Below are positions 24,338-38,345 of a stretch of 64,000 nt of DNA, piece by piece. How positions within the stretch are numbered: position 1 is the stretch's first letter; every line of letters starts with the position of its first letter. The notes under the pieces are model-generated. The model was not told the DNA's origin. It worked only from the letters and a program-made list of their open reading frames with translations, and searched no databases. Made by a program: the position numbers and the translations under genes. Source of the DNA: a virus; the IMG/VR virus record IMGVR_UViG_3300032322_001765, positions 156,868 through 220,867 of that record; one strand, given 5' to 3'.

Positions 24338-24362
24338 GAGCGTTCTTATACAGGAGGTAAAC

Positions 24363-24434: not shown

Positions 24435-24452
24435 TATACAACATTGATGGGC

Positions 24453-24479: not shown

Positions 24480-24481
24480 AC

Positions 24482-24557: not shown

Positions 24558-24571
24558 ATAAAGGAAATATT

Positions 24572-24724
24572 ATGCCAATGTATGAAACTACTGTTAGAAC
24601 GCCGAGCGGCGAAGAAAAGAAAAGAATTTATGCGGATACACCGCAAGAGGCTAAAAAACTTTTTGAACAATTGTATGGTGGGCCTAGAGCAGTTCCATAT
24701 ATACCAAAAATAGTACCAAGTTAG
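24572..24724 (+). CDS. Small hypothetical protein (50 aa)
   Basis: The protein starts MPMYETTVRTPSGEEKKRIY and contains ADTPQEAKKLFEQLYG, an alternating strand-helix pattern seen in small phage proteins. AAAGGAAA lies before the ATG. The G of its TAG stop is also the first base of tRNA-Ala. No family assigned. Confidence 0.75.
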   Translation: MPMYETTVRTPSGEEKKRIYADTPQEAKKLFEQLYGGPRAVPYIPKIVPS

Positions 24725-24797
24725 GGGGATTAGTTAAATGGGATAACAACGGCTTTGCAAGCCGTGATTAACAGTTCGATTCTGTTATCCTCCACCA
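24724..24797 (+). tRNA. tRNA-Ala(TGC)
   Basis: Acceptor GGGGGAT/ATCCTCC, anticodon stem ACGGC/GCCGT with loop TTTGCAA, T-loop TTCGATT, encoded CCA. A one-base register shift would read GCA (Cys) but breaks the stem. It shares its first base with the previous stop codon. Confidence 0.82.
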
Positions 24798-24808
24798 AAA
24801 CATTCAAT

Positions 24809-24885
24809 GGTGATGGTAGCTCAGTTGGTAGAGTCCCGGATTGTGATTCCGGTCGTCGTGGGTTCGAGCCCCATCCTTCACCCCA
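24809..24885 (+). tRNA. tRNA-His(GTG)
   Basis: Anticodon stem CCGGA/TCCGG with loop TTGTGAT. Includes the His-specific G-1 opposite C73; acceptor GTGATGG/CCTTCAC has one T-T mismatch; encoded CCA. Confidence 0.88.
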
Positions 24886-24888
24886 AAT

Positions 24889-24966
24889 ACCCTGATGGCG
24901 AAATTGGTAGACGCACCAGTTTAAGGTACTGGATTGTTGAGAGTTCGAGTCTCTCTCAGGGCACCA
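24889..24966 (+). tRNA. tRNA-Leu(AAG)
   Basis: Anticodon stem CCAGT/ACTGG with loop TTAAGGT, T-arm GAGAG-TTCGAGT-CTCTC, encoded CCA. The acceptor starts with an A-C mismatch (ACCCTGA/TCAGGGC). An A34 leucine tRNA is unusual in bacteria. Confidence 0.78.
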
Positions 24967-24968
24967 AT

Positions 24969-25044
24969 GCCGTTCAAGCTAACCAAGTGGAAGCGTCTGT
25001 CTGAAGAACAGAATGGCCTGGAGCGTTACCAGGGGTCGGCACCA
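24969..25044 (+). tRNA. Degenerate tRNA-Phe(GAA)
   Basis: 76 nt with anticodon stem TCTGT/ACAGA, loop CTGAAGA, acceptor GCCGTTC/GGTCGGC (one T-T mismatch) and encoded CCA. The T-stem CCTGG/CCAGG is intact but its loop is AGCGTTA instead of TTCxAxx, and position 8 is A instead of T. Either a specialised or a decaying tRNA. Confidence 0.6.
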
Positions 25045-25048
25045 ATTT

Positions 25049-25077
25049 TTGACAAATATTAAATTATTTGTTATACT
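25049..25077 (+). promoter_or_regulatory. Consensus sigma70 promoter
   Basis: TTGACA (25049-25054), 17-bp spacer, TATACT (25072-25077). It lies just before tRNA-Arg(CCG) and the HNH gene. Confidence 0.85.
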
Positions 25078-25081
25078 TGAT

Positions 25082-25156
25082 GAGTCCTTAGTCTAATGGA
25101 TAAGATACTGCATTCCGATTGCATTGATGCAGGTTCGATTCCTGCAGGACTTACCA
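25082..25156 (+). tRNA. tRNA-Arg(CCG)
   Basis: Acceptor GAGTCCT/AGGACTT, anticodon loop TTCCGAT in stem TGCA/TGCA, T-loop TTCGATT, encoded CCA. Starts only 4 nt after the -10 box, so the 5' end would be close to the transcription start. Confidence 0.85.
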
Positions 25157-25188
25157 AAAGTAAATACTATTTTATATAGGAGATTAAA

Positions 25189-25749
25189 ATGTCTGTCTTA
25201 GCTTTGGATATCACAGGAATCCCTAGACAATGGGTTTCAAACGATATTGCAATCACTTACCATGCAAAAGAGATGGTAGCATGGAGTATTGGTGAAATTG
25301 TTGCACGTTATCGTGGTGGCATTCAAAATAATGGCAAAATGAGTTATCTTGAAACTCCTAGTATTATTGCCATTAAAGGACATGGTTTTGATCCTAGCAA
25401 ACATGGCAAAGTTGCACTTACTAATAAAACATTGTTTGGGCGTGACCGTCATGTATGTGCATACTGCGGCGGACATTTTTCGAATTCAAACAACTTAAGT
25501 CGTGACCATATTTTACCTAAAAGCAGAGGTGGTGCAAACAATTGGATGAATGTGGTTACTGCATGTACTCCATGCAATAACAAGAAAGACAACAAAACAT
25601 TGAAAGAGGCACGAATGGAATTGCTTTATGTTCCCTATGAGCCAAATTTCTTTGAAGCAATGATTTTGCAAAATAGAAATATTCTCGCTGATCAAATGGA
25701 ATACTTAATGACAGGTGTACCAAAACATAGCAGAATTTTGTTATCATAA
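25189..25749 (+). CDS. HNH endonuclease
   Basis: This 186-residue protein has a C-terminal HNH domain. CAYCGG and CTPCNNKK form the zinc-binding CxxC pairs, and LSRDHILPKSRGGANNWMNVV holds the catalytic DH, N and following residues. The N-terminal 85 residues are unassigned and may bind DNA. An AGGAGA ribosome binding site precedes the ATG. It sits inside a tRNA array, a typical place for free-standing HNH homing or mobility nucleases in T4-type phages; that role is inference. Confidence 0.88.
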   Translation: MSVLALDITGIPRQWVSNDIAITYHAKEMVAWSIGEIVARYRGGIQNNGKMSYLETPSIIAIKGHGFDPSKHGKVALTNKTLFGRDRHVCAYCGGHFSNSNNLSRDHILPKSRGGANNWMNVVTACTPCNNKKDNKTLKEARMELLYVPYEPNFFEAMILQNRNILADQMEYLMTGVPKHSRILLS

Positions 25750-25757
25750 TAAAAACA

Positions 25758-25786
25758 TTGACATAAAATGTTTTGTGTGATATGAT
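25758..25786 (+). promoter_or_regulatory. Consensus sigma70 promoter
   Basis: TTGACA (25758-25763), 17-bp spacer, TATGAT (25781-25786), 20 nt before tRNA-Thr. Confidence 0.85.
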
Positions 25787-25805
25787 TGCGTTTAAATAGT
25801 TTTAT

Positions 25806-25880
25806 GCTGGCGTGGCTCAACGGTAGAGCAACGGATTTGTAATCCGTAGGTTGAGGGTTCGATTCCTTTCGCCAGCACCA
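25806..25880 (+). tRNA. tRNA-Thr(TGT)
   Basis: Acceptor GCTGGCG/CGCCAGC, anticodon stem ACGGA/TCCGT with loop TTTGTAA, T-loop TTCGATT, encoded CCA. Confidence 0.92.
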
Positions 25881-25886
25881 TTTTAT

Positions 25887-25962
25887 TGTCTAGTAGCTCA
25901 GTCGGTAGAGCAGGTGACTGTTAATCACCCTGTCGTAGGTTCGATCCCTACCTAGACAGCCA
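25887..25962 (+). tRNA. tRNA-Asn(GTT)
   Basis: Acceptor TGTCTAG/CTAGACA, anticodon stem GGTGA/TCACC with loop CTGTTAA, T-loop TTCGATC, encoded CCA. Confidence 0.93.
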
Positions 25963-25986
25963 AACTTCTTGTATTATAGGTATATT

Positions 25987-26181
25987 ATGTTAGTTACTGA
26001 AGCACAAGGTTACAAACTTTTCTGTGAAACACAAAAAATTGATTTCCCGCCGGACACCTATTATGTTCGTATTTTTACCAAATATGAATTTGCTAAGAAC
26101 TCTGATGCGGAGCAAACTAAGATTGAACTTTTTCTAACTAAAAGTGAATTAGACAATCTTAGACAAATGCTTACTGTCTAA
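25987..26181 (+). CDS. Small hypothetical protein (64 aa)
   Basis: The protein starts MLVTEAQGYKLF and ends LDNLRQMLTV. It looks soluble, with a helix-strand-helix pattern and no known motif. A longer frame begins upstream at 25969, but this ATG is the more likely start because the upstream codons run out of the tRNA-Asn spacer. It lies between two tRNA genes. Function unknown. Confidence 0.65.
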   Translation: MLVTEAQGYKLFCETQKIDFPPDTYYVRIFTKYEFAKNSDAEQTKIELFLTKSELDNLRQMLTV

Positions 26182-26188
26182 TTAATTT

Positions 26189-26263
26189 CTGGCGTTCGTA
26201 TAAGGGATAATACTACAGACTTCTAATCTGTAAATCCAGGTTCGAGTCCTGGACGCCGGACCA
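26189..26263 (+). tRNA. tRNA-Arg(TCT)
   Basis: Acceptor CTGGCGT/ACGCCGG, anticodon stem ACAGA/TCTGT with loop CTTCTAA, T-loop TTCGAGT, encoded CCA. Starts 7 nt after the previous stop. Confidence 0.9.
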
Positions 26264-26292
26264 AATTATCAAACTAGCAACAAAAATAATTG

Positions 26293-26321
26293 TTGACGAT
26301 AAATCCTATTTGATGTATAAT
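26293..26321 (+). promoter_or_regulatory. Consensus sigma70 promoter
   Basis: TTGACG (26293-26298), 17-bp spacer, TATAAT (26316-26321), upstream of tRNA-Glu and tRNA-Ile. Confidence 0.85.
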
Positions 26322-26366
26322 TCTTTTTATCGTAGTTAATATCTTTAACAATTTAATAACATTTAG

Positions 26367-26442
26367 GCACCCATCGTCTAGAGGCCTAGGACATTGCCCT
26401 TTCAAGGCAGTAACACGGGTTCGAATCCCGTTGGGTGTACCA
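26367..26442 (+). tRNA. tRNA-Glu(TTC)
   Basis: Acceptor GCACCCA/TGGGTGT, anticodon stem TTGCC/GGCAG with loop CTTTCAA, T-loop TTCGAAT, encoded CCA. Confidence 0.92.
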
Positions 26443-26447
26443 GTTAA

Positions 26448-26497
26448 TGGTATAACTAACTGTGATACAAGCACAATATGCTTGGTAGATTATACCA
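26448..26497 (+). ncRNA. Stem-loop between tRNA-Glu and tRNA-Ile
   Basis: ATGGTATAA pairs with TTATACCAT (9 bp) and an inner AAGC/GCTT stem follows. It fills the spacer and may guide processing of the tRNA precursor; role inferred. Confidence 0.45.
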
Positions 26498-26502
26498 TAC
26501 TT

Positions 26503-26579
26503 GCCCACTTAGCTCATTCGGTTAGAGCATCGTCTTGATAAGGCGGGGGTGCTTGGTTCGATTCCAAGAGTGGGCACCA
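26503..26579 (+). tRNA. tRNA-Ile(GAT)
   Basis: Acceptor GCCCACT/AGTGGGC, anticodon loop TTGATAA, T-loop TTCGATT, encoded CCA. Its ACCA end also forms the base of the downstream hairpin 26576-26661. Confidence 0.93.
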
Positions 26580-26661
26580 TATTGAAGCACATTATTAGTG
26601 ACGCTGGGAAGGACAAGATTCAGCGGTAAATAAATCCTTCATTAGTGTGTTTCAATATGGT
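26576..26661 (+). ncRNA. Structured hairpin sequestering tRNA-Ile CCA (copy A)
   Basis: ACCATATTGAAGCACA pairs with TGTGTTTCAATATGGT (16 bp). The first four bases are the ACCA of tRNA-Ile. Inside, CGCTG/CAGCG and GAAGGA/TCCTTC interlock as a possible H-type pseudoknot. A homologous hairpin follows tRNA-Lys at 28102-28184, with a compensatory base-pair change. The base pairs are read directly; function is unknown. Confidence 0.7.
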
Positions 26662-26689
26662 TGACAATAAATCAGTTTGCTGTTAAACT
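26661..26689 (+). promoter_or_regulatory. Sigma70 promoter before structured RNA region
   Basis: TTGACA (26661-26666), 17-bp spacer, TAAACT (26684-26689). It begins exactly at the foot of hairpin A and would transcribe the structured region up to tRNA-Asp. Confidence 0.7.
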
Positions 26690-26695
26690 AGCGGC

Positions 26696-26897
26696 AAATA
26701 AAGATTCCGGTTACTACTTTCCTGAAAGTAGCGTGTGGCGACGATAATTGACCCGGTGGCAGCAAACCGTTAGCGAGGTAACTCCTCAGGCACTGCTAGG
26801 CAGAATCCCAACTGCACACAGACACGAGAATAAACGGGATGGACAGGGTAACAACTCTGCTAAGGGGCGATGCCTGGAAAACACGTAGCCTTAGCAA
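26696..26897 (+). ncRNA. Candidate structured non-coding RNA (copy 1)
   Basis: No ORF with a ribosome binding site is seen. The region holds a hairpin CTACTTTC-CT-GAAAGTAG, GAGG/CCTC, and the 20-nt box GATGGACAGGGTAACAACTC (26838-26857). The box is followed by a stem TGCTAAGG (26858-26865)/CCTTAGCA (26889-26896). The same box and a covarying stem recur at 27924-27975. It lies behind its own promoter. Class unknown; comparison with large phage RNAs such as GOLLD or ROOL would be sensible. Confidence 0.6.
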
Positions 26898-27021
26898 TAT
26901 TAGTTTTGCAGTTTGTAAGCACAGAAGCCGGCGCGAGGCATTATGTAACCAAAGCAATAAACAGTAATCACGTGTAAAGCTGTTGAGCGAGGCATATAGT
27001 ATAAACTGCAAAACTAATATT
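26897..27021 (+). ncRNA. Long stem-loop abutting tRNA-Asp
   Basis: A 22-bp stem with one G-U pair joins about 26897-26918 (AATATTAGTTTTGCAG...) to about 27000-27021 (...CTGCAAAACTAATATT), enclosing about 80 nt. Its 3' strand ends on the base before tRNA-Asp. A near-perfect stem of this length is not expected by chance and may direct RNase processing of the precursor. Confidence 0.65.
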
Positions 27022-27098
27022 GGCTTCATAGTTCAGTTGGTTAGAACGCCGCCCTGTCACGGCGGAGGTCAGGGGTTCGAGTCCCCTTGAGGTCGCCA
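27022..27098 (+). tRNA. tRNA-Asp(GTC)
   Basis: Acceptor GGCTTCA/TGAGGTC (two G-T pairs), anticodon stem CCGCC/GGCGG with loop CTGTCAC, T-loop TTCGAGT, encoded CCA. Confidence 0.92.
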
Positions 27099-27118
27099 AA
27101 CATAGGGTAAACTTCTAC

Positions 27119-27147
27119 TTGCACTTAATTTGAACTTAAAGTAAAAT
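27119..27147 (+). promoter_or_regulatory. Sigma70-like promoter
   Basis: TTGCAC (27119-27124), 17-bp spacer, TAAAAT (27142-27147), 33 nt before the small membrane-protein gene. Confidence 0.5.
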
Positions 27148-27180
27148 ATAGGTTCTTTAGTTAAGTCATTGGAGAACAGA

Positions 27181-27384
27181 ATGAATTTGAAATTGAAAGC
27201 AGCATTGTATACCTTTCTATATGCATTAACAGGATTAGGTGTAGGATTTGTAGTATCACAACTGCCTACTTGGACAGTAGTAACACTTGTGTGTATTTTT
27301 GGAATTTGTCTAGCATATATTCTTATACATACAGGACTAAAATACGATGAAGCAGTAAAAGAAATAAGTAAGAAGTACGAATAA
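27181..27384 (+). CDS. Small membrane protein (67 aa)
   Basis: The protein starts MNLKLKAALYTFLYALTGLG. Two hydrophobic segments (about residues 7-28 and 34-53) are followed by a charged tail (DEAVKEISKKYE), so it is a probable two-span inner-membrane protein. GGAG lies before the ATG; an in-frame TTG at 27169 is less likely. The size fits a small holin or membrane-stress protein, but no family is recognised. Confidence 0.7.
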   Translation: MNLKLKAALYTFLYALTGLGVGFVVSQLPTWTVVTLVCIFGICLAYILIHTGLKYDEAVKEISKKYE

Positions 27385-27392
27385 TGTAGTTA

Positions 27393-27483
27393 GGAGCGTT
27401 GGCCGAGTGGTCGAAGGCAGTGGTTTGCTAAACCATCGTACATCAAAAATGTACCATTAGTTCGAATCTAATACGCTCCGCCA
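27393..27483 (+). tRNA. tRNA-Ser(GCT)
   Basis: Type II tRNA with a long variable arm. Acceptor GGAGCGT/ACGCTCC, anticodon stem GTGGT/ACCAT with loop TTGCTAA, T-loop TTCGAAT, G73, encoded CCA. Confidence 0.92.
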
Positions 27484-27510
27484 GTTTTCATATTTTATTT
27501 AGGAAAGAAA

Positions 27511-27690
27511 ATGAAATATCTTAATTTTGTATTACCCGTTATAATCACACTACTTTCAATAATTGGAATTATTGCTAGTTATGGTGCAGGTAACGATTCT
27601 GCACTTAGTGCATATGTTGTAGCATTATCAGGTTGGATGGTAATCGCAACGGATGAAGTTATTAAATTTATTGATAGTCGAAGAAAATAA
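27511..27690 (+). CDS. Small membrane protein (59 aa)
   Basis: The protein starts MKYLNFVLPVIITLLSIIGI; two hydrophobic segments (about residues 5-24 and 32-48) are followed by DEVIKFIDSRRK. AGGAAAG lies before the ATG. Its layout resembles the 27181 protein (two spans and a charged tail), so the pair may work together. Function unknown. Confidence 0.7.
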   Translation: MKYLNFVLPVIITLLSIIGIIASYGAGNDSALSAYVVALSGWMVIATDEVIKFIDSRRK

Positions 27691-27696
27691 ATTTAT

Positions 27697-27774
27697 GCAA
27701 CGGTGGCAGAGAGGCCCAATGCAAGAGTCTGCAAAACTCTAAAGCCGTCAGTTCGAATCTGACCCGTTGCTCCA
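27697..27774 (+). tRNA. tRNA-Cys(GCA)
   Basis: Acceptor GCAACGG/CCGTTGC, anticodon stem AGAGT/ACTCT with loop CTGCAAA, T-loop TTCGAAT, encoded CCA. Confidence 0.9.
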
Positions 27775-27985
27775 AGTATCCCGCAGGCCCTTCTGCGCTA
27801 TGAAAGGGGGTATATTGGCTTCACCATAACGCCAGGGCTCTTACGTTGATAGCCTCAAAGCCCGCTTGACATGGGTGATAGAAAAAACGTAGGTGGGTAT
27901 CACACCTTGCCAGAAGTAAATGTGATGGACAGGGTAACAACTCAGTAAGGGGCTTATGGGAATAAGTAGCCTTACACTTTATACT
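27775..27985 (+). ncRNA. Candidate structured non-coding RNA (copy 2)
   Basis: No ORF with a ribosome binding site occupies this spacer. It holds hairpin GCAG-GCCCTT-CTGC and TTACGTT/AACGTA pairing. It also holds the same 20-nt box as copy 1 (27924-27943), followed by stem GTAAGG (27945-27950)/CCTTAC (27970-27975) with an inner CTTAT/ATAAG hairpin. The stem sequence differs from copy 1 but pairing is kept, which supports a folded RNA. Function unknown. Confidence 0.6.
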
Positions 27986-28000
27986 ATAGGAGATCCTGTT

Positions 28001-28039
28001 ATGGATAGTGACAAGAGTGACAAGATAATGCGGGCATAG
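28001..28039 (+). CDS. Possible 12-residue leader peptide before tRNA-Lys
   Basis: A good AGGAG box about 10 nt upstream is followed by ATG and 12 codons (MDSDKSDKIMRA) whose TAG lies inside tRNA-Lys. It could be a translated leader affecting tRNA release or simply chance; coding evidence is weak. Confidence 0.25.
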   Translation: MDSDKSDKIMRA

Positions 28040-28105
28040 CTCAGTCGGTAGAGCAGTAGACTTTTAATCTATTGGTCGTGGGTTCGAATCCCCCTGCCCG
28101 TACCA
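28030..28105 (+). tRNA. tRNA-Lys(TTT)
   Basis: Acceptor GCGGGCA/TGCCCGT, anticodon stem TAGA/TCTA with loop CTTTTAA, T-loop TTCGAAT, encoded CCA. Its ACCA is paired in the following hairpin. Confidence 0.92.
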
Positions 28106-28184
28106 TATAAAAACACATTCGCTTATATTTTAACGGCTTGCAAGGCACGGGCGTATAAGAGTATTGAGTGTGTTTCTATATGGT
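28102..28184 (+). ncRNA. Structured hairpin sequestering tRNA-Lys CCA (copy B)
   Basis: ACCATATAAAAACACA pairs with TGTGTTTCTATATGGT (15 of 16 positions). It is homologous to copy A: both start with tRNA ACCA and end ATATGGT. At position 8 a T-A pair in A becomes A-T here, a compensatory change. An inner CTTATA/TATAAG stem replaces the pseudoknot of copy A. Confidence 0.7.
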
Positions 28185-28189
28185 TTATT

Positions 28190-28274
28190 GGGGATGCGGC
28201 TAAGTTAGAGAGTGGCGGCGGACTGTAAATCCGTTCTTTCGGGTGAGTAGGTGCGAATCCTTCCATCCCCACCA
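28190..28274 (+). tRNA. tRNA-Tyr(GTA)
   Basis: Type II tRNA. Acceptor GGGGATG/CATCCCC, anticodon stem CGGA/TCCG with loop CTGTAAA, long variable arm, encoded CCA. Confidence 0.92.
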
Positions 28275-28280
28275 ATTAAT

Positions 28281-28354
28281 TCCGGTGTAGTATAATGGCA
28301 GTGCGACGGTCTCCAAAACCGTTAGTGGGAGTTCGATTCTCTCCACCGGAGCCA
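28281..28354 (+). tRNA. tRNA-Trp(CCA)
   Basis: Acceptor TCCGGTG/CACCGGA, anticodon stem ACGGT/ACCGT with loop CTCCAAA, T-loop TTCGATT, encoded CCA. Confidence 0.92.
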
Positions 28355-28355
28355 G

Positions 28356-28646
28356 TTATTTAGTGAATCGTCTAATATGTGTAGATATAGGAGTATTATA
28401 TTGTTCTGTACCGCGATCACCGCCTACTGTTAAACGTAAGTTTACATCAACGGTTTTTGCGTAATAGTTTACATAATTGGCAATTTTACTACTTGTTGTT
28501 CTAATTAGACAAATACCGGCATTATTACAAACTATGTAGGTAGTTATTCCGAATTCGTCTTTGTCTATGAATAGCATAACATATTTATTAATATTTGGGC
28601 AACTAATAGTTGCATTATTAATTTGTTTGATGTATAATCTATACAT
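28356..28646 (-). CDS. Possible hypothetical protein antisense within tRNA array
   Basis: A 96-codon minus-strand frame fills the spacer between tRNA-Trp and the next tRNA. An internal Met (at 28577, MLFIDKDEFGITTY) is an alternative start. The C-terminal part (TVDVNLRLTVGGDRGTEQY) looks protein-like, but no ribosome binding site is seen before either start, and the 5' part overlaps a plus-strand promoter. It is the only minus-strand candidate in this region. Confidence 0.4.
   Translation of the reverse strand: MYRLYIKQINNATISCPNINKYVMLFIDKDEFGITTYIVCNNAGICLIRTTSSKIANYVNYYAKTVDVNLRLTVGGDRGTEQYNTPISTHIRRFTK
28610..28638 (+). promoter_or_regulatory. Sigma70 promoter
   Basis: TTGCAT (28610-28615), 17-bp spacer, TATAAT (28633-28638). 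It would drive the Met-Gly-Leu-Leu tRNA run. Confidence 0.75.
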
Positions 28647-28657
28647 AAGTTAGAAAT

Positions 28658-28734
28658 GCCTCTGTAGCTCAATCGGTCAGAGCAGCGGACTCATAATCCG
28701 TTGGTTAGGGGTTCGAGTCCCTTCGGAGGCACCA
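28658..28734 (+). tRNA. tRNA-Met(CAT) or Ile2(CAT)
   Basis: Acceptor GCCTCTG/CGGAGGC, anticodon stem CGGA/TCCG with loop CTCATAA, T-loop TTCGAGT, encoded CCA. A second non-initiator CAT tRNA; one of the pair may read AUA. Confidence 0.88.
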
Positions 28735-28742
28735 GGTATTAT

Positions 28743-28816
28743 GCGGGATTAGTTTAATGGTAAAACGAAAGCCTTCCAAGCTCTAGTTATCAGTTCGATT
28801 CTGATATCCCGCTCCA
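28743..28816 (+). tRNA. tRNA-Gly(TCC)
   Basis: Acceptor GCGGGAT/ATCCCGC, anticodon loop CTTCCAA (stem with one A-C mismatch), T-loop TTCGATT, encoded CCA. Confidence 0.87.
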
Positions 28817-28825
28817 AGTTAGAAT

Positions 28826-28909
28826 GCCCGGGTGGTGAAATGGTAGACACAAAGGACTTAAAATCCTTCGCCGCAAGGCGTGCCGGTTCGAGTCCGGCTT
28901 CGGGTACCA
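28826..28909 (+). tRNA. tRNA-Leu(TAA)
   Basis: Type II. Acceptor GCCCGGG/TTCGGGT, anticodon stem AAGGA/TCCTT with loop CTTAAAA, variable arm CGCCGCAAGGCG, encoded CCA. Confidence 0.92.
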
Positions 28910-28917
28910 AGTAACAT

Positions 28918-29000
28918 GCGCATATGGCGAAATTGGTAGACGCGCCAGATTTAGGTTCTGGTCTCAACGGGTGGGGGTTCGAGTCCCTCTATGCGCACCA
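28918..29000 (+). tRNA. tRNA-Leu(TAG)
   Basis: Type II. Acceptor GCGCATA/TATGCGC, anticodon stem CCAGA/TCTGG with loop TTTAGGT, T-loop TTCGAGT, encoded CCA. Confidence 0.92.
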
Positions 29001-29017
29001 CTGTTCTCTTTTATAAA

Positions 29018-29025
29018 GATAAATA
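29018..29025 (+). promoter_or_regulatory. T4-late-promoter-like box GATAAATA
   Basis: It ends 8 nt before the ATG at 29034; no Shine-Dalgarno sequence is seen. Confidence 0.4.
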
Positions 29026-29033
29026 ATTGTACT

Positions 29034-29207
29034 ATGGCACAATTAAAAATCTTCATTAACGACAAACTATACAAAACAGTACCATTAGATACTGAAAAAT
29101 ATGAGCCTTCTTGGTATTGGCCTCAAATTAAGGCTGATAAAGAAGCCGGTTTACTAAATTCTTTTAACATTGAAGAATCAATGAAAGTAGAATTTAGAAA
29201 AATATAA
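29034..29207 (+). CDS. Small hypothetical protein (57 aa)
   Basis: The protein starts MAQLKIFINDKLYKTVPLDT and contains YEPSWYWPQIKADKEAG. It has a strand-strand-helix pattern and is soluble. It lies between tRNA-Leu and the initiator tRNA and is preceded by a late-promoter-like box rather than a ribosome binding site. Function unknown. Confidence 0.7.
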   Translation: MAQLKIFINDKLYKTVPLDTEKYEPSWYWPQIKADKEAGLLNSFNIEESMKVEFRKI

Positions 29208-29311
29208 ACCATAATAGTTTGTATACTTTCAATATTGCAATGATATGCTCACGCATATCAAAAAAGCAAGCCTATTTTTTTAGCTTATAAATAAGTCGTA
29301 GGACATTAAGA

Positions 29312-29384
29312 CGCGGGTTAGGGAAGAGGTCATCCCGTTAGGCTCATAACCTGAAGATCGTTGGTTCAAATCCAGCACCCGCAT
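29312..29384 (+). tRNA. Initiator tRNA-fMet(CAT), no encoded CCA
   Basis: CGCGGGT/ACCCGCA acceptor has the initiator-specific C1-A72 mismatch; anticodon loop CTCATAA; T-arm TTGG-TTCAAAT-CCAG closely matches bacterial tRNA-fMet. The anticodon stem keeps two of the three initiator G-C pairs. The 3' end runs into TCTTA, so CCA must be added, unlike every other tRNA here. Confidence 0.85.
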
Positions 29385-29402
29385 CTTAGTGTCTTACAAT
29401 AA

Positions 29403-29481
29403 CCGGGTGTAGCTTAGTCTGGCTTAAAGCGCCTGCTTTGGGAGCAGGAGATCGTGAGTTCGAATCCCACTTCCCGGACCA
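29403..29481 (+). tRNA. tRNA-Pro(TGG)
   Basis: Acceptor CCGGGTG/TTCCCGG (one T-T mismatch), anticodon stem CTGC/GCAG with loop TTTGGGA, T-loop TTCGAAT, encoded CCA. Confidence 0.9.
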
Positions 29482-29500
29482 ATTCTTTTTAAGGTGATAT

Positions 29501-29638
29501 ATGGCTAAGCAAGTTGGAGTAAAAGAACGTAAGAAGGTAGTCAAATTAACTTGTCAGGGAGGAAGTAAACCCAAAACAAGTACTATGAATAAGGATTTAA
29601 AAAGAAGTTACAAGAAGTATAGAGGACAAGGTAAATAG
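29501..29638 (+). CDS. Small basic protein (45 aa)
   Basis: The protein starts MAKQVGVKERKKVVKLTCQGG and ends KRSYKKYRGQGK. It is strongly basic, so nucleic-acid or ribosome binding is plausible. AAGGTG lies before the ATG. The last base of its TAG is the first base of tRNA-Val. No family recognised. Confidence 0.75.
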   Translation: MAKQVGVKERKKVVKLTCQGGSKPKTSTMNKDLKRSYKKYRGQGK

Positions 29639-29712
29639 CATCGTTAGTTCAGCGGTAGAATCCCTGCCTTACAAGCAGGTTGTCGTTGGTTCGAATCCAG
29701 CACGATGCACCA
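29638..29712 (+). tRNA. tRNA-Val(TAC)
   Basis: Acceptor GCATCGT/ACGATGC, anticodon stem CCTGC/GCAGG with loop CTTACAA, T-loop TTCGAAT, encoded CCA. Its first base is shared with the preceding stop codon. Confidence 0.92.
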
Positions 29713-29718
29713 AGTATT

Positions 29719-29793
29719 GCGGGTGTAATTCAGGGGTAGAATGTTTGCTTGCCAAGCAAAATGTCAGGAGTTCGAATCTCCTCACCCGCTCCA
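29719..29793 (+). tRNA. tRNA-Gly(GCC)
   Basis: Acceptor GCGGGTG/CACCCGC, anticodon stem TTTGC/GCAAA with loop TTGCCAA, T-loop TTCGAAT, encoded CCA. Confidence 0.92.
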
Positions 29794-29809
29794 ATTTTAT
29801 ATAATTTTT

Positions 29810-31050
29810 ATGGCACATCAACAACAATTTGATTTTGTACAAAGAGTAAAGAATCGCTATCCAATAAATTTTTTTCAGAAAAAAGTTTTAGAAATTGGTA
29901 GCTTAAACATTAATGGCACAATAAGAGATTTTTTCAACTATTGTGATTATTTGGGAGTTGATGTAGGACAAGGTCCATGCGTCGATATAGTTTGTGAAGG
30001 TCAAAATGTAGATCATCCCGACAACACTTATGACACAGTTGCAAGTTGTGAATGTTTTGAACACAACCCTCATTGGGTAGAAACTTTTCAAAATATGTAT
30101 CGTATGACTAAGCCGGGTGGTTTAGTTTTTATGAGTTGTGCAACTACAGGTAGACCTGAACATGGTACAACACGTACTAGTCCTAGTGATAGTCCGTTAA
30201 CAATTGGTATAGGTTGGGATTACTATAAAAATTTAACTGAACAAGATTTTAGAGATAACTTTAACATTGATGAAATGTTCAGTGAATATAAATTTGAAGT
30301 TGGTACATCACATCCTGATTTATATTTTTATGGTGTTAAAAAAACAAGTGATGTAATTGATTTTAGAAAATACTTTACTGAAAAGTATTACGACAGTAAT
30401 TGGTTAAAAACTGCAAAAGAAACTTATGACAATAACGATCCTTACCCGCATCTTGTCATAGATGATTTTTTACCAGTTGACGTAATGGAAAAAGTTTTAA
30501 ATTCTTTCCCTCAACCCGGCGACTTAGATTGGTGGGAATTCAAGAATGATAACGAAATAAAATTAGGCAGTAGAAAAGAAATTCAATTACCGCAAGTAAC
30601 AAGAAATGTATGTGCAGAATTAAATTCTGGCTATGTGTTAGATTGGTTAGAGTATTTAACCAGTGTACCTGGGCTTATTGCTGATACAAGATTGTTTGGT
30701 GGTGGGTTGCATCAAATTGTGCGTGGTGGAAAATTAAACATCCATGTAGATTTTAATATTGAACCACATACAAAATTACGTAGGCGACTTAATGTTCTAA
30801 TCTATCTTAACAAAGATTGGAAAGAAGAATACGAAGGTTATTTAGAATTGTGGGACAAAACAAAAACACAATGTGTAAAAAAGATAGCGCCCGTTTTTAA
30901 TCGTTGTGTAATTTTTAATACTAATGATACTTCATGGCATGGGCATCCTACTCCATTAAATACGCCCGAACATATTACAAGAAAAAGTTTAGCCATGTAT
31001 TATTACTCTGTCGATACAGAGAACGTAAAAGTTCATTCAACCATTTATTA

Positions 31051-31051
<1 letters not shown>
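29810..31051 (+). CDS. Fused SAM methyltransferase and 2OG-Fe(II) oxygenase
   Basis: The ATG at 29810 (MAHQQQFDFV) follows tRNA-Gly; upstream in-frame codons belong to the tRNA. Residues about 10-190 form a class I methyltransferase-like domain (VLEIGSLNINGTIRDFF, CDYLGVDVGQGPCVD, SCECFEHNPHW). Residues about 220-413 form a prolyl-hydroxylase-type oxygenase: H-x-D in LNIHVDFN, distal His in SWHGHP, then the 2OG-binding Arg in TRKSLAMYYY. The domain pair recurs in phage sugar or protein modification genes. The TAG overlaps tRNA-Ser by one base. Confidence 0.85.
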
Positions 31052-31140
<89 letters not shown>

Positions 31141-31797: not shown

Positions 31798-32979
31798 ATG
31801 GCTGGCCGCAATTTTCTATTTGTTCCAGGACCAACAAATATTCCCGATAGAGTTTTAAGAGCAATGGTAGTATCTATGGAAGATCATAGGTCACCTGATT
31901 TCCCTTCACTAACTCTTGAAATACTGCCAAAGTTAAAAAAACTTTTTCGCACAACAACAGGTACACCGTTTATATTCCCGTCTAGCGGCACAGGCTGTTG
32001 GGAAGCAGCACTTACAAATACTTTATCACCTGGCGACAAAATATTAGCAGCACGATTTGGACAATTCAGTCATCTATGGATTGAGATGTGCCAAAGGTTG
32101 GGATTTGAAGTCGAAATAGTTGATTGTGAATGGGGCACTGGTGTACCACTTGACATTTACAGAGATAAATTAGAAGCAGATACCGAACACAAAATTAAAG
32201 CTGTGTTAGTTACTCACAATGAAACAGCAACTGGTGTCACTTCAGATGTTGCAGGCGTACGCCGTATAATGAATAATGCAAATCATCCTGCAATGATATT
32301 TGTCGATGCAGTCTCATCATTTGCTAGTATTGATTTAAGATTTGATGAGTGGGGTATTGATATGTGTGTAACGGGATCTCAAAAAGGTCTTATGTTACCT
32401 GCAGGACTAGGTATTCTATGTGCAAGTGAAAGGGCATTAGAAATGCGCCACCTTGCAAAATCTAAAAGAGCATATTTTGATTTAAACGATATGTTAAATT
32501 CAAATAGAAACGGATACTTCCCGTATACCCCTGCTCTTTCGTTGTTATATGGATTAAAAGAATCACTCTGTATACTTGAGGAAGAAGGTTTAGATAATGT
32601 TATCAACAGACATAACTATCTTGCTTCGGGGGTACGTGCAGCAGTAGAAGGATGGGGACTAAAACTTTGTGCTAAGGATCCTAAATGGAATAGTAACACT
32701 GTTTCAGCTATTATGGTTCCGGAAGGCATTGACGCTGCAAAAGTAATATCAGCAGCATATAATCATTATAACTTATCTTTAGGTGCAGGATTAAATAAAG
32801 TTGCAGGCAAATTATTTAGAATTGGGCATTTAGGTGACATGAATGAGGTGCATTTGTTAGCCGCGATAGCAGGTGCAGAAATGGCCATGTTGGACGTTGG
32901 TATAAAAATAGAATCAGGTAGTGGGGTTGCCGCTGCAATTAATTATTATCGAATGCACAAAGGAACAGTCAATGTATAA
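31798..32979 (+). CDS. sgaA: Serine-glyoxylate aminotransferase
   Basis: This 393-residue protein is of normal family length. It has the N-terminal signature LFVPGPTNIPDRVLRAM, substrate region DHRSPDFPSLT, AARFGQFSHLW, VTHNETATGV, the PLP aspartate in FVDAVSSFAS and the Schiff-base lysine in GSQKGLMLPAGLG. It transfers the amino group from serine to glyoxylate, giving hydroxypyruvate and glycine, a key step of the serine cycle of methylotrophs. AAGGAGG lies before the ATG. An auxiliary metabolic gene; the metabolic purpose in infection is inferred. Confidence 0.9.
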   Translation: MAGRNFLFVPGPTNIPDRVLRAMVVSMEDHRSPDFPSLTLEILPKLKKLFRTTTGTPFIFPSSGTGCWEAALTNTLSPGDKILAARFGQFSHLWIEMCQRLGFEVEIVDCEWGTGVPLDIYRDKLEADTEHKIKAVLVTHNETATGVTSDVAGVRRIMNNANHPAMIFVDAVSSFASIDLRFDEWGIDMCVTGSQKGLMLPAGLGILCASERALEMRHLAKSKRAYFDLNDMLNSNRNGYFPYTPALSLLYGLKESLCILEEEGLDNVINRHNYLASGVRAAVEGWGLKLCAKDPKWNSNTVSAIMVPEGIDAAKVISAAYNHYNLSLGAGLNKVAGKLFRIGHLGDMNEVHLLAAIAGAEMAMLDVGIKIESGSGVAAAINYYRMHKGTVNV

Positions 32980-33046
32980 AGTAGGTGAAGCAATTTTTTA
33001 TAGTTTAGTAGCAGTTTTTATTGTGGCATTTTTACTTACTATTTAA
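32972..33046 (+). CDS. Possible small membrane peptide (24 aa)
   Basis: It overlaps the end of sgaA in another frame. The 24-codon frame starts MYKVGEAIFYS and continues as one hydrophobic span (LVAVFIVAFLLTI). Translational coupling is possible, but there is no ribosome binding site; coding status is uncertain. Confidence 0.35.
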   Translation: MYKVGEAIFYSLVAVFIVAFLLTI

Positions 33047-33072
33047 TATTGTTGTATGAAACAATCCGAAAC

Positions 33073-33111
33073 AGGTTCTGGACGGCGGTTCGATTCCGCC
33101 CATCTCCACCA
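33073..33111 (+). ncRNA. ssrA: Permuted tmRNA, acceptor (3') piece
   Basis: T-arm GGCGG-TTCGATT-CCGCC is followed by CATCTCC-A-CCA (33101-33111). CATCTCC pairs with GGGGATG at 33194-33200 of the coding piece to make the acceptor stem. The acceptor piece precedes the coding piece, so the gene is circularly permuted and the mature tmRNA has two chains. The exact 5' end is uncertain. Confidence 0.85.
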
Positions 33112-33193
33112 AATGCAATCTTGGGATGATTATTTTCCGCCTTTGAATTTGTGGAACTATAGTATCAGTTGGCAATGGAAGATTTCATTTGAT
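33112..33193 (+). other. Intervening segment of permuted tmRNA
   Basis: About 80 nt between the acceptor CCA and the 5' GGGGATG of the coding piece; expected to be removed during maturation. No ORF seen. Confidence 0.65.
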
Positions 33194-33349
33194 GGGGATG
33201 ATCAGGTCTCGACAGGGTCAAGAGTACGAGAGTGGACAACACGGTAGGCGATGACCGTAAATCAAGCAAAACTATAACTGCAAACGCAGCTAATGATGAG
33301 GTATACGCTCTAGCAGCGTGATCTCCGGGGCAACTATGCCTTGTTACCA
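33194..33349 (+). ncRNA. ssrA: Permuted tmRNA, coding (5') piece with tag ORF
   Basis: It begins GGGGATGATCAGGTCTCGAC, the usual tmRNA 5' end. The tag reading frame runs from GCA at 33280 to TGA at 33319-33321 and encodes ANAANDEVYALAA, ending in the -LAA protease tag. tmRNA with SmpB rescues stalled ribosomes and marks nascent peptides for ClpXP. The 3' end is approximate; a terminator follows. Confidence 0.9.
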
Positions 33350-33360
33350 AAAATAGTTTA

Positions 33361-33384
33361 AAAGGCTACTTCGGTAGCCTTTTT
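33361..33384 (+). terminator. Rho-independent terminator after tmRNA
   Basis: AAAGGCTAC-TTCG-GTAGCCTTT with a UUCG-type tetraloop and T-run. Confidence 0.92.
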
Positions 33385-33388
33385 CCAT

Positions 33389-33988: not shown

Positions 33989-34013
33989 CCAAAACTCCAT
34001 TTATTTCTAATTT

Positions 34014-34047
34014 TGTAACATATCTGTAATATTCTAACTTCTAAATA
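34014..34047 (+). promoter_or_regulatory. Pho box and -10 of pstS
   Basis: TGTAACA-TATC-TGTAATA (34014-34031; repeats at 11-bp phase as in PhoB sites), then 10 nt and TAAATA (34042-34047). The same architecture and spacing occurs before 36665. Indicates activation by host PhoB under phosphate limitation. Confidence 0.7.
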
Positions 34048-34083
34048 TTTTTGTACACATGTACATTTTATCGGAGACAGAGT

Positions 34084-35106
34084 ATGAAAAAAATATTTGC
34101 ATTATTGGCGTTTGTGTCAACATTTGCATCAGCAGCAGAATTCACCGGAGCAGGAGCAACATTCCCGTTCCCAATCTATGCTAAGTGGGCTGAAGCATAC
34201 AAAGCACAAACTGGCATTGGTCTAAATTATCAATCAATTGGTAGTGGCGGTGGTATTCGTCAAATCAAAGCAAAGACGGTTGACTTTGGCGCAAGTGATA
34301 TGCCATTGAAAAAAGAAGAACTTGACAAAGAAGGTCTTGTACAATTTCCAGCAATCATCGGTGGTGTTGTACCAGTATTCAACCTAGACGGTATTGATGC
34401 TGGTAAATTAAAACTTACTCCAGATGTGATTGCTAATATTCATTTAGGTAAAATTAACAAATGGAATGACAAAGCAATTGCTGAATTAAATCCAGGAGTT
34501 GCTCTTCCTGCTATGAACATTACTGTAGTTCATCGTGCAGACGGTTCAGGTACTACATTTATCTGGACAAACTTTTTAGGCAAAGCAAATGCTGAATTTC
34601 AAAAAACAGTAGGCGAAGGCACAGCAGTTAAATGGCCAGTTGGTGTAGGCGGTAAAGGCAACGAAGGTGTAGCAGCACAAGTGCAAAGAATCAAAGGTGC
34701 ATTTGGTTATGTTGAGTATGCTTATGCTAAAAGAAACAAGATTCCTTATGCAGCGTTGAAAAATCGTGATGGTAACTTTGTACTACCAGATGATACTACA
34801 TTCAAAGCAGCCGCAGCTAATGCTGATTGGAACAATGCGCCAGGGATGTATTTGTTACTCACATGGCAGACAGGTAAAGATGCATGGCCAGCAACAGGTG
34901 CAAGTTTCATTCTAATGCACAAGCAACAGGCAGATACATTAACGGGTCGTGCAGTTCTCAAGTTCTTTGACTGGTCATACAAGAATGGTGGCCAAATGTC
35001 AACTGAGTTAGAGTATGTTCACATGCCAGCTGATGTAATTAAATTAGTTCAGGAAAATTGGAAGAAGGATTTCCGTGGTCCTGATGGTAACCCAATTTGG
35101 AAATAA
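34084..35106 (+). CDS. pstS: Phosphate ABC transporter substrate-binding protein PstS
   Basis: This 340-residue protein starts MKKIFALLAFVSTFASAA, a Sec signal peptide likely cleaved before EFTGAGATFPFPIYAKW. The PstS phosphate-site motifs are present: GAGATFP, IGSGGGIRQI, DFGASDMPL and HRADGSGTTFIWTNFL. It binds phosphate in the periplasm for the host PstCAB importer. GGAGA precedes the ATG; an in-frame ATG at 34051 lacks a ribosome binding site. pstS is a known auxiliary gene of marine and freshwater T4-type phages. Confidence 0.96.
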   Translation: MKKIFALLAFVSTFASAAEFTGAGATFPFPIYAKWAEAYKAQTGIGLNYQSIGSGGGIRQIKAKTVDFGASDMPLKKEELDKEGLVQFPAIIGGVVPVFNLDGIDAGKLKLTPDVIANIHLGKINKWNDKAIAELNPGVALPAMNITVVHRADGSGTTFIWTNFLGKANAEFQKTVGEGTAVKWPVGVGGKGNEGVAAQVQRIKGAFGYVEYAYAKRNKIPYAALKNRDGNFVLPDDTTFKAAAANADWNNAPGMYLLLTWQTGKDAWPATGASFILMHKQQADTLTGRAVLKFFDWSYKNGGQMSTELEYVHMPADVIKLVQENWKKDFRGPDGNPIWK

Positions 35107-35166: not shown

Positions 35167-36573
35167 ATGAAAACATTAGGTAAATTAACTTTGGCTATTT
35201 CTTTAGCCTTCTCAGTTCCAGCATATGCTGATGAATATTTGAGTACATTAAATATTTTGCGAGACAAAGGTATCATTACAAAACAAGAGTATGATACTAA
35301 AGTACGTGATTATGAAGAAAAAGCAGAAAACAAAAAATTTGCAGAGCAACGAATCGACAAAGATGTTAGCGATTCAGTCAAATTTAGACAAGCAAGAGCA
35401 AACGACGGATCAGTTACAGAAAACGGATTTGGACTTAAATCCAAAGATGGAAACACGACTGCCCAATTTACAGGTCGATTACATATGGACTATCGTCAGT
35501 ACGACCCCAATTATGGTACAGGTCAAACCACGGATTCGTATCAGAACCTAGCAGAAGTTCGTCGTGCTAGATTTGGCGTACGTGGTCAATTTCAAAAAGA
35601 TTTCAAGTATCAACTACTTGCAAACTTTGGTAATGACGTAGGTGCTTCTGCTACTTCCAGTACCGCAGATGAGATGTGGGTTAACTATGCAGCCAATCCT
35701 GAAATGCAATTTCAGTTTGGTTTATTCAAAATGCCATTCAGCTTAGAGCAATTAACAAGTTCTAATAATATTGATTTTATGGAGCGTAGTTTAATTGGTA
35801 ACACTGATGGTGAGTTCATTCCTGCAAAAGAAACTGGATTCATGGTTCATGGTATACCTAAACCAGGTCTATTGTATCAAGTAGCATTAAGCCGTGGTCG
35901 TGCAAACAAAGATGCAACTAACGATGGTTTTGACTATATTGGTCGTGTAGTAACAAACGTTGCTGAACTACAAGGTAGCAAAGCATATGTATTACATTTA
36001 GGCGCTGCATACAGTATGGGTGATATCAAAGGTGGTGTTACACCAGCTAGTGGTAGAACAGAGGCTCGCACACAGTCAGCATGGTTTACAGGTCCTGCAT
36101 TATCTGGTACCACGACAAGAACTCGCCAAGGATTAGAAGCAGCATTTGCTTACAATGGTTTAAAGTTACAAGGCGAACAGTTTAATTTCAAGTATGATCC
36201 TACAACAGGTTCCGATCAAGAAATTAAAGGTTACTACGTACAAGCATTGTATAACTTAACAGGCGAAAGTCACAATTATAAAGACGGTATCTTTAACTGG
36301 ATTAAACCAAACAATCCAACAGATAAAGGTGGTCGCGGTGCATGGCAAGTTGGTGTGCGTATGAGTGAGTTTGATGCAAGTGGTATCACTGTTGTAACAG
36401 GCAAATCTAATCGTGCTACTGCCATGACATACGGAATTACTTGGTTTGCAACTGACAATTTACGCTTCATGCTCAACTATGTTGACACAAAGTTTGATTC
36501 GTTAGTAGGAAGTTCAGGTAGCCGTGTAAATGGTGACAGAGCAGTTATGTTTAGAAGCCAATTAAGTTTCTAA
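35167..36573 (+). CDS. Outer-membrane phosphate-selective porin (OprP/OprO family)
   Basis: This 468-residue protein has a Sec signal peptide (MKTLGKLTLAISLAFSVPAYA) and an N-terminal DEYLSTLNILRDKGIITKQEYD coiled segment typical of O/P porins. A 16-strand-barrel-like C-terminal part follows (FTGRLHMDYRQYD, ARFGVRGQFQKDFKY, QFGLFKMPFSLEQLTSSNNIDFMERS), ending in Phe (FRSQLSF) as required for BAM insertion. It would let phosphate cross the outer membrane to PstS. AAGGA precedes the ATG. Rarely reported in phages, to my knowledge. Confidence 0.92.
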   Translation: MKTLGKLTLAISLAFSVPAYADEYLSTLNILRDKGIITKQEYDTKVRDYEEKAENKKFAEQRIDKDVSDSVKFRQARANDGSVTENGFGLKSKDGNTTAQFTGRLHMDYRQYDPNYGTGQTTDSYQNLAEVRRARFGVRGQFQKDFKYQLLANFGNDVGASATSSTADEMWVNYAANPEMQFQFGLFKMPFSLEQLTSSNNIDFMERSLIGNTDGEFIPAKETGFMVHGIPKPGLLYQVALSRGRANKDATNDGFDYIGRVVTNVAELQGSKAYVLHLGAAYSMGDIKGGVTPASGRTEARTQSAWFTGPALSGTTTRTRQGLEAAFAYNGLKLQGEQFNFKYDPTTGSDQEIKGYYVQALYNLTGESHNYKDGIFNWIKPNNPTDKGGRGAWQVGVRMSEFDASGITVVTGKSNRATAMTYGITWFATDNLRFMLNYVDTKFDSLVGSSGSRVNGDRAVMFRSQLSF

Positions 36574-36618: not shown

Positions 36619-36625
36619 GTGGCTT

Positions 36626-36659
36626 TGTAATCGTCTTGTAACATAAGATATTCTAAATA
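36626..36659 (+). promoter_or_regulatory. Pho box and -10 of the phosphoesterase operon
   Basis: TGTAATC-GTCT-TGTAACA (36626-36643), then 10 nt and TAAATA (36654-36659): identical layout to the pstS promoter. The -10 ends 5 nt before the ATG, so the transcript would be almost leaderless. Confidence 0.7.
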
Positions 36660-36664
36660 GTTTT

Positions 36665-37474
36665 ATGAAATCACAATATCGCTCAATTTTTATATCAGAT
36701 ATACATTTAGGTACTAAAGATTGTAAGGCGGAGGCGCTAAACAATTTTTTAAAAAATAATACCTGTGAAATGTTGTATTTGGTTGGCGATATTATTGATG
36801 CATGGAAAATAAAACAAAATAAATGGCGTTGGAAACAAAGTCATACAAATGTTGTACGTAGAATATTAGGTCATGCTAAAAGAAATACTAGAGTAATCTA
36901 CGTGTTAGGAAATCATGATGAGTTTCTAAGACCATTTTTACAATATAATTTAAATTTTGGTATGGTAGAATTACATAACCAAATTGAACATATTGGTGTT
37001 GACGGAAAACATTATCTTGTTGTACATGGGGATTTATTTGATGGTATAACTAGACTTGCACCATGGTTATCTTTTTTAGGAGACAAAGCATATGATTTTA
37101 TCTTATCAGTTAATAGCAAATTTAATTGGTTCTTACATAGAATTGGTTTTGGCTATTTTAGCCTTAGCCGTTTTCTTAAGCACAAAGTAAAAAAAGCAGT
37201 AGATTTTATATTCCAGTTCGAGAAAAACTTAGCAGGTTATTGCAAAAAACGCGGGTTTGATGGTGTGATATGTGGTCACATACATCATGCAGAAATAAAA
37301 GAAATAGACGGTGTTACATACATGAACGATGGTGATTGGGTAGAAAGTTGCACTGCTCTGGTAGAGCATCTAGATGGTAGATGGGAAATTGTAACGTGGG
37401 TGCAGGAGAAAGACGATGTGGTTGATGATATTGATAGCAGTACACATAAGCGATCCAAAGGACATTCCGGGTAA
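36665..37474 (+). CDS. PlcP/LpxH-family metallophosphoesterase (lipid remodelling phospholipase C candidate)
   Basis: This 269-residue protein has the full metal site: SDIHLGTKDCKAE (residues 10-22), YLVGDIIDAW, VLGNHDEFLRP, VVHGDLFDG and ICGHIHHAEI. LpxH (UDP-2,3-diacylglucosamine hydrolase) and PlcP (phospholipase C that strips phosphate from membrane lipids during phosphate starvation) share this fold. A Pho box upstream and a glycosyltransferase downstream favour the PlcP role, because PlcP works with a glycosyltransferase to replace phospholipids with glycolipids. The specific activity is inference. Confidence 0.82.
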   Translation: MKSQYRSIFISDIHLGTKDCKAEALNNFLKNNTCEMLYLVGDIIDAWKIKQNKWRWKQSHTNVVRRILGHAKRNTRVIYVLGNHDEFLRPFLQYNLNFGMVELHNQIEHIGVDGKHYLVVHGDLFDGITRLAPWLSFLGDKAYDFILSVNSKFNWFLHRIGFGYFSLSRFLKHKVKKAVDFIFQFEKNLAGYCKKRGFDGVICGHIHHAEIKEIDGVTYMNDGDWVESCTALVEHLDGRWEIVTWVQEKDDVVDDIDSSTHKRSKGHSG

Positions 37475-37586
37475 AATAACATTAGAATTTCAAGACGTAA
37501 GTGTGTGCGAACAAACATTAAAATCAATGACTTACTGGTTAAAGTTTGATAATTTCAAAGTAGAAGGAAAATGTATTAAAAAATGA
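37416..37586 (+). CDS. Small protein (56 aa) linking phosphoesterase and glycosyltransferase genes
   Basis: A frame starting MWLMILIAVHISDPKDIPGK, with GGAG 8 nt before the ATG, overlaps the end of the phosphoesterase gene. Its TGA overlaps the glycosyltransferase ATG as ATGA. This nested coupling supports it being real. The N-terminus is hydrophobic and the rest soluble (LEFQDVSVCEQTLKSMTYW). Family unknown. Confidence 0.65.
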   Translation: MWLMILIAVHISDPKDIPGKITLEFQDVSVCEQTLKSMTYWLKFDNFKVEGKCIKK

Positions 37587-38296
37587 TGAGATTAAGTGAT
37601 AAAATTACTATAGTAATTCCTTGTAAAAACGAAGAAAACTACATAATTCATTTATTGACGGCTTTACGGTCTCAAAAATTGGGAGATACTAGAATTATAA
37701 TTGCTGATAGTTCTACAGACAATACAAGAGATATTATTCAAAAAAATAGTGCATTTTTAAATTTAGAAATTATCGACGGTGGTACTGTATCTCAAGCTAG
37801 GAATGCGGGAGCTAAACTTGCAACTACCCCTTATATTTTATTCATTGACGCAGATGTTAGATTCTTTGATGGTTATGTGATTCGTGACGCGGTTGAAGAA
37901 GTTGTGTTTTATGACCTCGACTTAATTGGTGCAAAAGTGTACTGTTATGAAAATGATTGGCGAGCAAATTTAAGCTTTACGATTTTTAATTTTGTAAACG
38001 ACATTTTAAAACATTTTAATCCATTCGCAGTGGGTGCATTTATGTTGACACGTAAAGACAAATTTGAAGAATACGGCGGCTTCAGTGAACGTTACATTAC
38101 GTCAGAAGATTTTTTTCTTTCTAGAAAATATGACCCGAAAAAATTCAAAATTTTAAATCATTATTTTGGACAAGATTCACGTAGATTTAAGAAAATGGGT
38201 TATTTTGGTATGGCGACATATCTACTTAAAAATTTTATAAATCGCAATAATAAAAAATATTGGGATAAATTAGAACACAATAAGTATTGGAGTTAA
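37583..38296 (+). CDS. GT2-family glycosyltransferase
   Basis: This 237-residue protein has a GT-A fold: IVIPCKNEENYI (residues 10-21), SQARNAGAKLATTPYILFIDADVRF with the DxD (near 85-93), and AVGAFMLTRKDKFEEYGGFSERYITSEDFFLSRK as acceptor/ED motif region. It is coupled to the upstream small gene and, through it, to the PlcP-like gene. By analogy with PlcP-Agt systems it may glycosylate diacylglycerol to make phosphate-free membrane lipids; it could also act on surface glycans. Confidence 0.88.
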   Translation: MMRLSDKITIVIPCKNEENYIIHLLTALRSQKLGDTRIIIADSSTDNTRDIIQKNSAFLNLEIIDGGTVSQARNAGAKLATTPYILFIDADVRFFDGYVIRDAVEEVVFYDLDLIGAKVYCYENDWRANLSFTIFNFVNDILKHFNPFAVGAFMLTRKDKFEEYGGFSERYITSEDFFLSRKYDPKKFKILNHYFGQDSRRFKKMGYFGMATYLLKNFINRNNKKYWDKLEHNKYWS

Positions 38297-38345
38297 TTTT
38301 AAATCGGATGCAAACATAGAGCATCTCTGGAACTCGTAACCAGAT

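Follow-up and report, generated by a model that had tools for sequence, protein, structure and literature searches.

The window analyzed here, a stretch of 64,000 nucleotides covering positions 156,868 to 220,867 of the virus record IMGVR_UViG_3300032322_001765 (a viral contig of 220,867 bp), carries an operon that probably represents the PlcP-Agt pathway of bacterial phosphate starvation in a phage version, the recovered phosphate being presumably reused for phage DNA. It comprises the gene of a PlcP-type metallophosphoesterase (plcP), an ORF of 56 aa and the gene of a GT2 glycosyltransferase, and follows directly, on the same strand, a pstS gene and a Porin_O_P gene (Table 1). The last two were missing from a first-pass annotation of this DNA, in which translational coupling of the phosphoesterase and GT2 through a small ORF had been proposed. 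Both enzymes were found at their assigned places, and the small ORF overlaps the phosphoesterase gene by 59 nucleotides and the GT2 gene by 4 nucleotides (ATGA), overlaps which fit translational coupling of the three genes. The true start of pstS is probably the ATG at 34084.

Table 1. Features of the pstS-plcP region (positions within the window).
Feature	Position	Strand	Evidence
Pho box TTGTAACATATCTGTAAT before pstS	34013..34030	+	0 mismatches
TAAATA, late-promoter-like -10, 11 nt past the pstS Pho box	34042..34047	+	
pstS, phosphate-binding protein	34051..35106	+	NF008171 424 bits (cut-off 339); TIGR00975 377 bits (cut-off 205)
Porin_O_P-family outer-membrane porin	35167..36573	+	PF07396 E 2.2e-52
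Pho box TTGTAATCGTCTTGTAAC before plcP	36625..36642	+	0 mismatches
TAAATA, late-promoter-like -10, 11 nt past the plcP Pho box	36654..36659	+	
PlcP-type metallophosphoesterase (plcP), 269 aa	36665..37474	+	PF00149 E 2.9e-11; metal ligands; tree
56-aa ORF between plcP and glycosyltransferase gene	37416..37586	+	follows plcP in 77/83 loci; two invariant Cys
Phage-specific GT2 glycosyltransferase	37583..38296	+	PF00535 E 1.9e-21; PF13506 25.5 bits
Two-hairpin RNA element, about 44 nt, 3' of the operon	38301..38345	+	covariation

The phage is of T4 type, as a gp23 major capsid gene lies on the same contig (PF07068, E 1.2e-99). The window also encodes 27 tRNA genes together with a permuted tmRNA of betaproteobacterial type (24148-31140 and 33007-33386), which hints at a betaproteobacterial host without proving it. 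Between 698 and 20186 lie seven or more radical SAM genes, and SPASM, HMPTM zinc-ribbon or B12-binding domains occur in several of them. An ORF at 29741-31051 gave two PHROG matches, its N-terminal half to a SAM-dependent methyltransferase and its C-terminal half to DNA endonuclease V, and the product of an aminotransferase gene at 31798-32979 came near the L-aspartate-glyoxylate aminotransferase BhcA (595.6 bits, cut-off 650).

Like LpxH, the phosphoesterase belongs to the calcineurin-like superfamily, and LpxH is the usual database label of these phage genes. The comparison of its phylogeny with PlcP and LpxH, proposed in the first-pass annotation as a check, was carried out. In viral contigs, 279 relatives of the phosphoesterase were detected, and the calcineurin-like metal ligands D12, H14, D42, N83, H84, H121, H205 and H207 were invariant in the phosphoesterase alignment A1. 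In a maximum-likelihood tree (IQ-TREE), the five LpxH rows formed a clade of their own with 100/100 support and all phage rows were placed with the bacterial PlcP-type rows; these, assigned through their plcP-agt neighbourhood and similarity, stood for PlcP in the tree. Thus, the phosphoesterase stands on the PlcP side of the 100/100 split and does not cluster with true LpxH. It also differs from LpxH in the motif GNHD, which reads GNRD in LpxH, and in its scores against the LpxH equivalogs TIGR01854 (35.7 bits, cut-off 190.35) and NF003743 (44.7 bits, cut-off 134), cut-offs that the true LpxH of co-resident genomes exceeded. Methylotenera, the gamma proteobacterium HTCC5015, Aquitalea and Gulbenkiania each encode an LpxH and a separate PlcP-type protein in one genome, so these are different genes. 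Scores, co-residence and tree speak strongly against a true LpxH; by sequence it is of PlcP type, its tie to proven PlcP running through the plcP-agt gene pair and similarity. Its predicted activity would be the hydrolysis of phospholipids to diacylglycerol. A GT4 gene was found directly 3' of the bacterial plcP-type gene in 45 of 80 loci; most of the Hyphomonas-type loci sampled had no linked GT4, and enzymes of PlcP type may accordingly serve further purposes.

The gene order is conserved among phages. We compared 83 plcP loci, made up of 81 viral contig loci (the window's own counted twice) and two phage isolates. The small ORF was present 3' of plcP in 77 of them, and a GT2 or GT4 gene in 78. 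PlcP-type homologues were also identified in Pelagibacter phage Mosig EXVC030M (47% identity), where the gene is divergent from a phosphate-transporter gene, and in Synechococcus phage S-SRM01 (38%), both without an adjoining glycosyltransferase gene and without a homologue of the small ORF; a small ORF that overlaps plcP in Mosig proved to be unrelated in sequence. Members of the small-ORF family measure 56-58 aa, share two invariant Cys and precede either GT2 or GT4, the window's member giving an AlphaFold model with a pLDDT of 80. No match to the small ORF was found in Pfam, NCBIfam, PHROGs or phage records, and its assignment to a known phage family was dropped; it may have a part in the pathway.

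The position after the small ORF was occupied by GT2 in 46 of the 83 phage loci and by an Agt-like GT4 in 32, two of which had an extra ORF between the small ORF and GT4; no locus had both. A scan seeded with GT2 instead gave 80 loci. In 76 of them plcP was found upstream at a distance of 734-921 nt, and in the remaining four the contig starts no more than 72 nt from GT2. At least nine changes between GT2 and GT4 were counted on the phage plcP tree, at least four of which are forced by well-supported branches. Such repeated mutual replacement beside the same partner makes it most likely that GT2 and GT4 do the same job. Agt is a proven diacylglycerol glycosyltransferase that adjoins plcP in bacteria. 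The phage GT4 proteins show features close to the hallmarks published for Agt/GTcp, GRVAxEKN and FPSxTDTFG (PMC8231724), with small changes: they carry His104 in YHTKFPE, GRVSxEKN and FPSxxDTFG (FPSxWETFG in some), and most bacterial plcP-linked GT4 proteins have exactly GRVAVEKN and FPSxTDTFG, the phage proteins as a group being split from them at 100/100. The best reading of the exchange is therefore that the diacylglycerol which PlcP would produce is glycosylated, and because relatives of this phage carry an Agt-type GT4 in this slot, the link of the glycosyltransferase to PlcP is firmer than the basis on which the first-pass annotation had placed it.

The GT2 protein itself lies outside every proven glycolipid-synthase family, to judge from its sequence. 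Considered as an Agt, which has a GT-B fold, His104-Asp256, GRVAxEKN and FPSxTDTFG, it was rejected, since its AlphaFold model (pLDDT 91) has a GT-A fold, with Foldseek GT-A matches at E about 1e-12. D89-x-D91 (DxD) and E175-D176 were invariant among the GT2 proteins. The profile of Glyco_transf_21 (PF13506), a family that includes lipid glycosyltransferases, was narrowly passed (cut-off 21.7). No close cellular ancestor emerged from 563 genomes of two proteobacterial classes, in which the best matches, all distant and weak, reached only 81 bits. The putative acceptor of GT2, diacylglycerol, is predicted from the exchange with GT4 rather than from the sequence of GT2 itself.

An improbable but more serious rival is that PlcP frees lipid phosphate while GT2 glycosylates O-antigen, an undecaprenyl-linked sugar or capsule, the altered surface excluding other phages and a host Agt or diacylglycerol kinase dealing with the diacylglycerol. 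The nearest solved structures to GT2, namely TarS, TarP, WrtF and K4 chondroitin polymerase, are polysaccharide or wall teichoic acid enzymes, its weak PHROG match is to GtrB-like O-antigen conversion (E 1.2e-7), and its top NCBIfam match is an arsenosugar glycosyltransferase, far under cut-off. Against this, polysaccharide genes were not found in the cluster, and both the nearly constant linkage to plcP, broken only at contig ends, and the repeated swap with GT4 predict a substrate shared with GT4.

The promoter that the first-pass annotation had placed before the phosphoesterase was recovered as a perfect match to the Pho box pattern YTGTMAY-N4-YTGTMAY, two 7-bp half sites with an 11-bp period. 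The whole 220,867-bp contig contains only two perfect boxes, one before pstS and one before plcP. The reversed pattern also gave two matches, so the count of perfect boxes is by itself no evidence; what is unusual for a chance box is its placement before these two genes and its conservation among relatives. With up to one mismatch allowed, a box was present in the 200 bp preceding plcP in 22 of 61 distinct loci (0.3% in dinucleotide shuffles) and in the same span before pstS in 18 of 30 (0.5% in shuffles), and upstream of GATase and GT2 in none of 28 and 34, respectively. In most plcP loci with a box it lies at -39/-40. Thirty of the 61 distinct plcP upstream regions had no box even at two mismatches, and many of the regions without one carry a two-hairpin RNA element instead. 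At the usual place of the pstS box, six loci (L007, L011, L013, L018, L038 and L054) have a different conserved repeat, TTGTGACGGTTCCGTTAC or near variants, which PhoB may recognise in some other group of hosts.

A TAAATA hexamer follows the plcP box at 11 nt in 20 of the 22 loci; in the remaining two the distance is 22 nt, longer by one repeat period. In this phage, 25 of 90 occurrences of TAAATA lie just 5' of genes, compared with 6-12 of 90-192 for control hexamers, and it resembles the T4-type late element (T4 TATAAAT; PMC3037559). With their half sites, their period and their fixed distance to a -10 element, the boxes have the features of the Pho regulon and are predicted PhoB sites, and each promoter may be a composite of a host PhoB site and a phage late -10. 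Experiments have on an earlier occasion failed to bear out the prediction of Pho boxes in phages (PMC10976474).

The RNA element, of the form AATCGG-stem-...-CTGGA..CGTAACCAG, also lies 3' of the operon in the window. In its alignment 98.4% of cells were paired, the covariation score was 0.455 compared with 0.171 after shuffling, and 38 cells were changed on both sides compared with 11.6 in shuffles; no match was found in Rfam. It was detected in 89 viral stretches (further copies at L007:5952-5995, L016:7633-7676, L308:1524-1567, and others), its commonest places being immediately before plcP or behind a porin, pstS, GT2 or GT4 gene, and in other phages between regA-like and Hsp20-like genes, both of which were read by eye. 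Matches from a first, looser scan of viral contigs were discarded as mostly due to chance.

Two further alternatives fare worse. It is very unlikely that the lipid change is itself the goal, as a block to superinfection or a protection of phage assembly, with phosphate release as a side effect: membrane lipid composition can affect how phages attach, as shown by the aminolipids of Ruegeria with their trade-off between competitiveness and phage attachment (PMC9938194), but the association with pstS and Porin_O_P and the PhoB-type control point to phosphate economy. Least credible of all is that the phosphoesterase is the LpxH of lipid A synthesis and GT2 a part of LPS modification, a reading to which the names of the Mosig and S-SRM01 homologues (UDP-2,3-diacylglucosamine hydrolase/diphosphatase), the listing of K03269 lpxH with LPS biosynthesis in work on Baikal viruses and the closest solved structure by sequence, an LpxH, would lead, and against which stand the low LpxH scores, the motif, the tree, the Pho-box control and the Agt-type partners.

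The reading of PlcP plus a glycosyltransferase as a lipid-remodelling pair, already put forward in the first-pass annotation, is thus supported by the tree, the conserved Pho box and the Agt-type GT4 of sister phages. In a phosphate-starved host, activated PhoB would bind both Pho boxes and switch on pstS-porin and plcP-small ORF-GT2, and late in infection a phage-modified polymerase might also use both promoters through TAAATA. PstS and the porin would increase phosphate uptake. PlcP would cut the phosphorylated headgroup off membrane phospholipids to leave diacylglycerol, to which GT2 (or the Agt-type GT4 in sister phages) would add a sugar from a host nucleotide-sugar. The resulting glycolipid would hold no phosphorus and would preserve the integrity of the membrane, and the phosphate released would be reused, presumably for phage DNA. 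Uptake by PstS and porin and internal recycling by PlcP and glycosyltransferase would in this way share one type of switch. More tentatively, and at somewhat less than an even chance, GT2 may represent a new, phage-only family of diacylglycerol glycosyltransferases which took the place of Agt on several occasions, and the composite promoter, with the PhoB site serving as -35 upstream of TAAATA, would confine remodelling to late infection and to phosphate starvation of the host.

Remodelling by PlcP and Agt is experimentally established in bacteria (PMC8528852, PMC4796936); in P. aeruginosa, PA3219 (PlcP) and PA3218 (Agt1) form an operon with a Pho box whose glycolipid products have been demonstrated (PMC8528852). 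The phage operon resembles PA3219-PA3218 and the operons of SAR11 HTCC7211 and Methylosinus OB3b in that plcP lies upstream of the glycosyltransferase gene behind a Pho-box promoter, and sister phages share the Agt-type GT4 as well. It differs in the small ORF between the genes, in GT2 taking the place of Agt here and in many relatives, in the linkage to pstS and porin, and in the late-type TAAATA element. A phage pstS with PhoB-type control is already known from T4-type myoviruses, where cyanophage pstS and phoA serve phosphate uptake and the use of phosphate esters; the portions of these reports cited here describe no lipid-remodelling genes (PMC3037559, PMC10976474). Cyanobacterial Pho boxes have a sequence other than that of the phage operon.

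No report of a phage-encoded PlcP or of a PlcP-glycosyltransferase operon was found in the collection of open-access papers that was searched. Only single phage homologues labelled LpxH emerged from these papers and the databases, and the Mosig genome paper does not mention its PlcP-type gene. The bacterial PlcP-Agt pathway is known; the substitution by GT2 and the composite promoter appear to be new.

Phages carry genes for phosphate uptake, and the membrane phospholipid of a cell amounts by estimate to millions of molecules. Since a 220,867-bp genome contains about 442,000 phosphorus atoms, this phospholipid would be a useful reserve. If the proposed pathway is true, the host membrane mined for phosphate would be a new phosphate source for phages, the entry of such phage genes as lipid A synthesis (lpxH) in virus gene lists would need correction, and a lipid signature open to search would be left by infection in waters poor in phosphate. 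The repeated exchange of GT2 and GT4 offers a candidate for a new family of glycolipid synthases.
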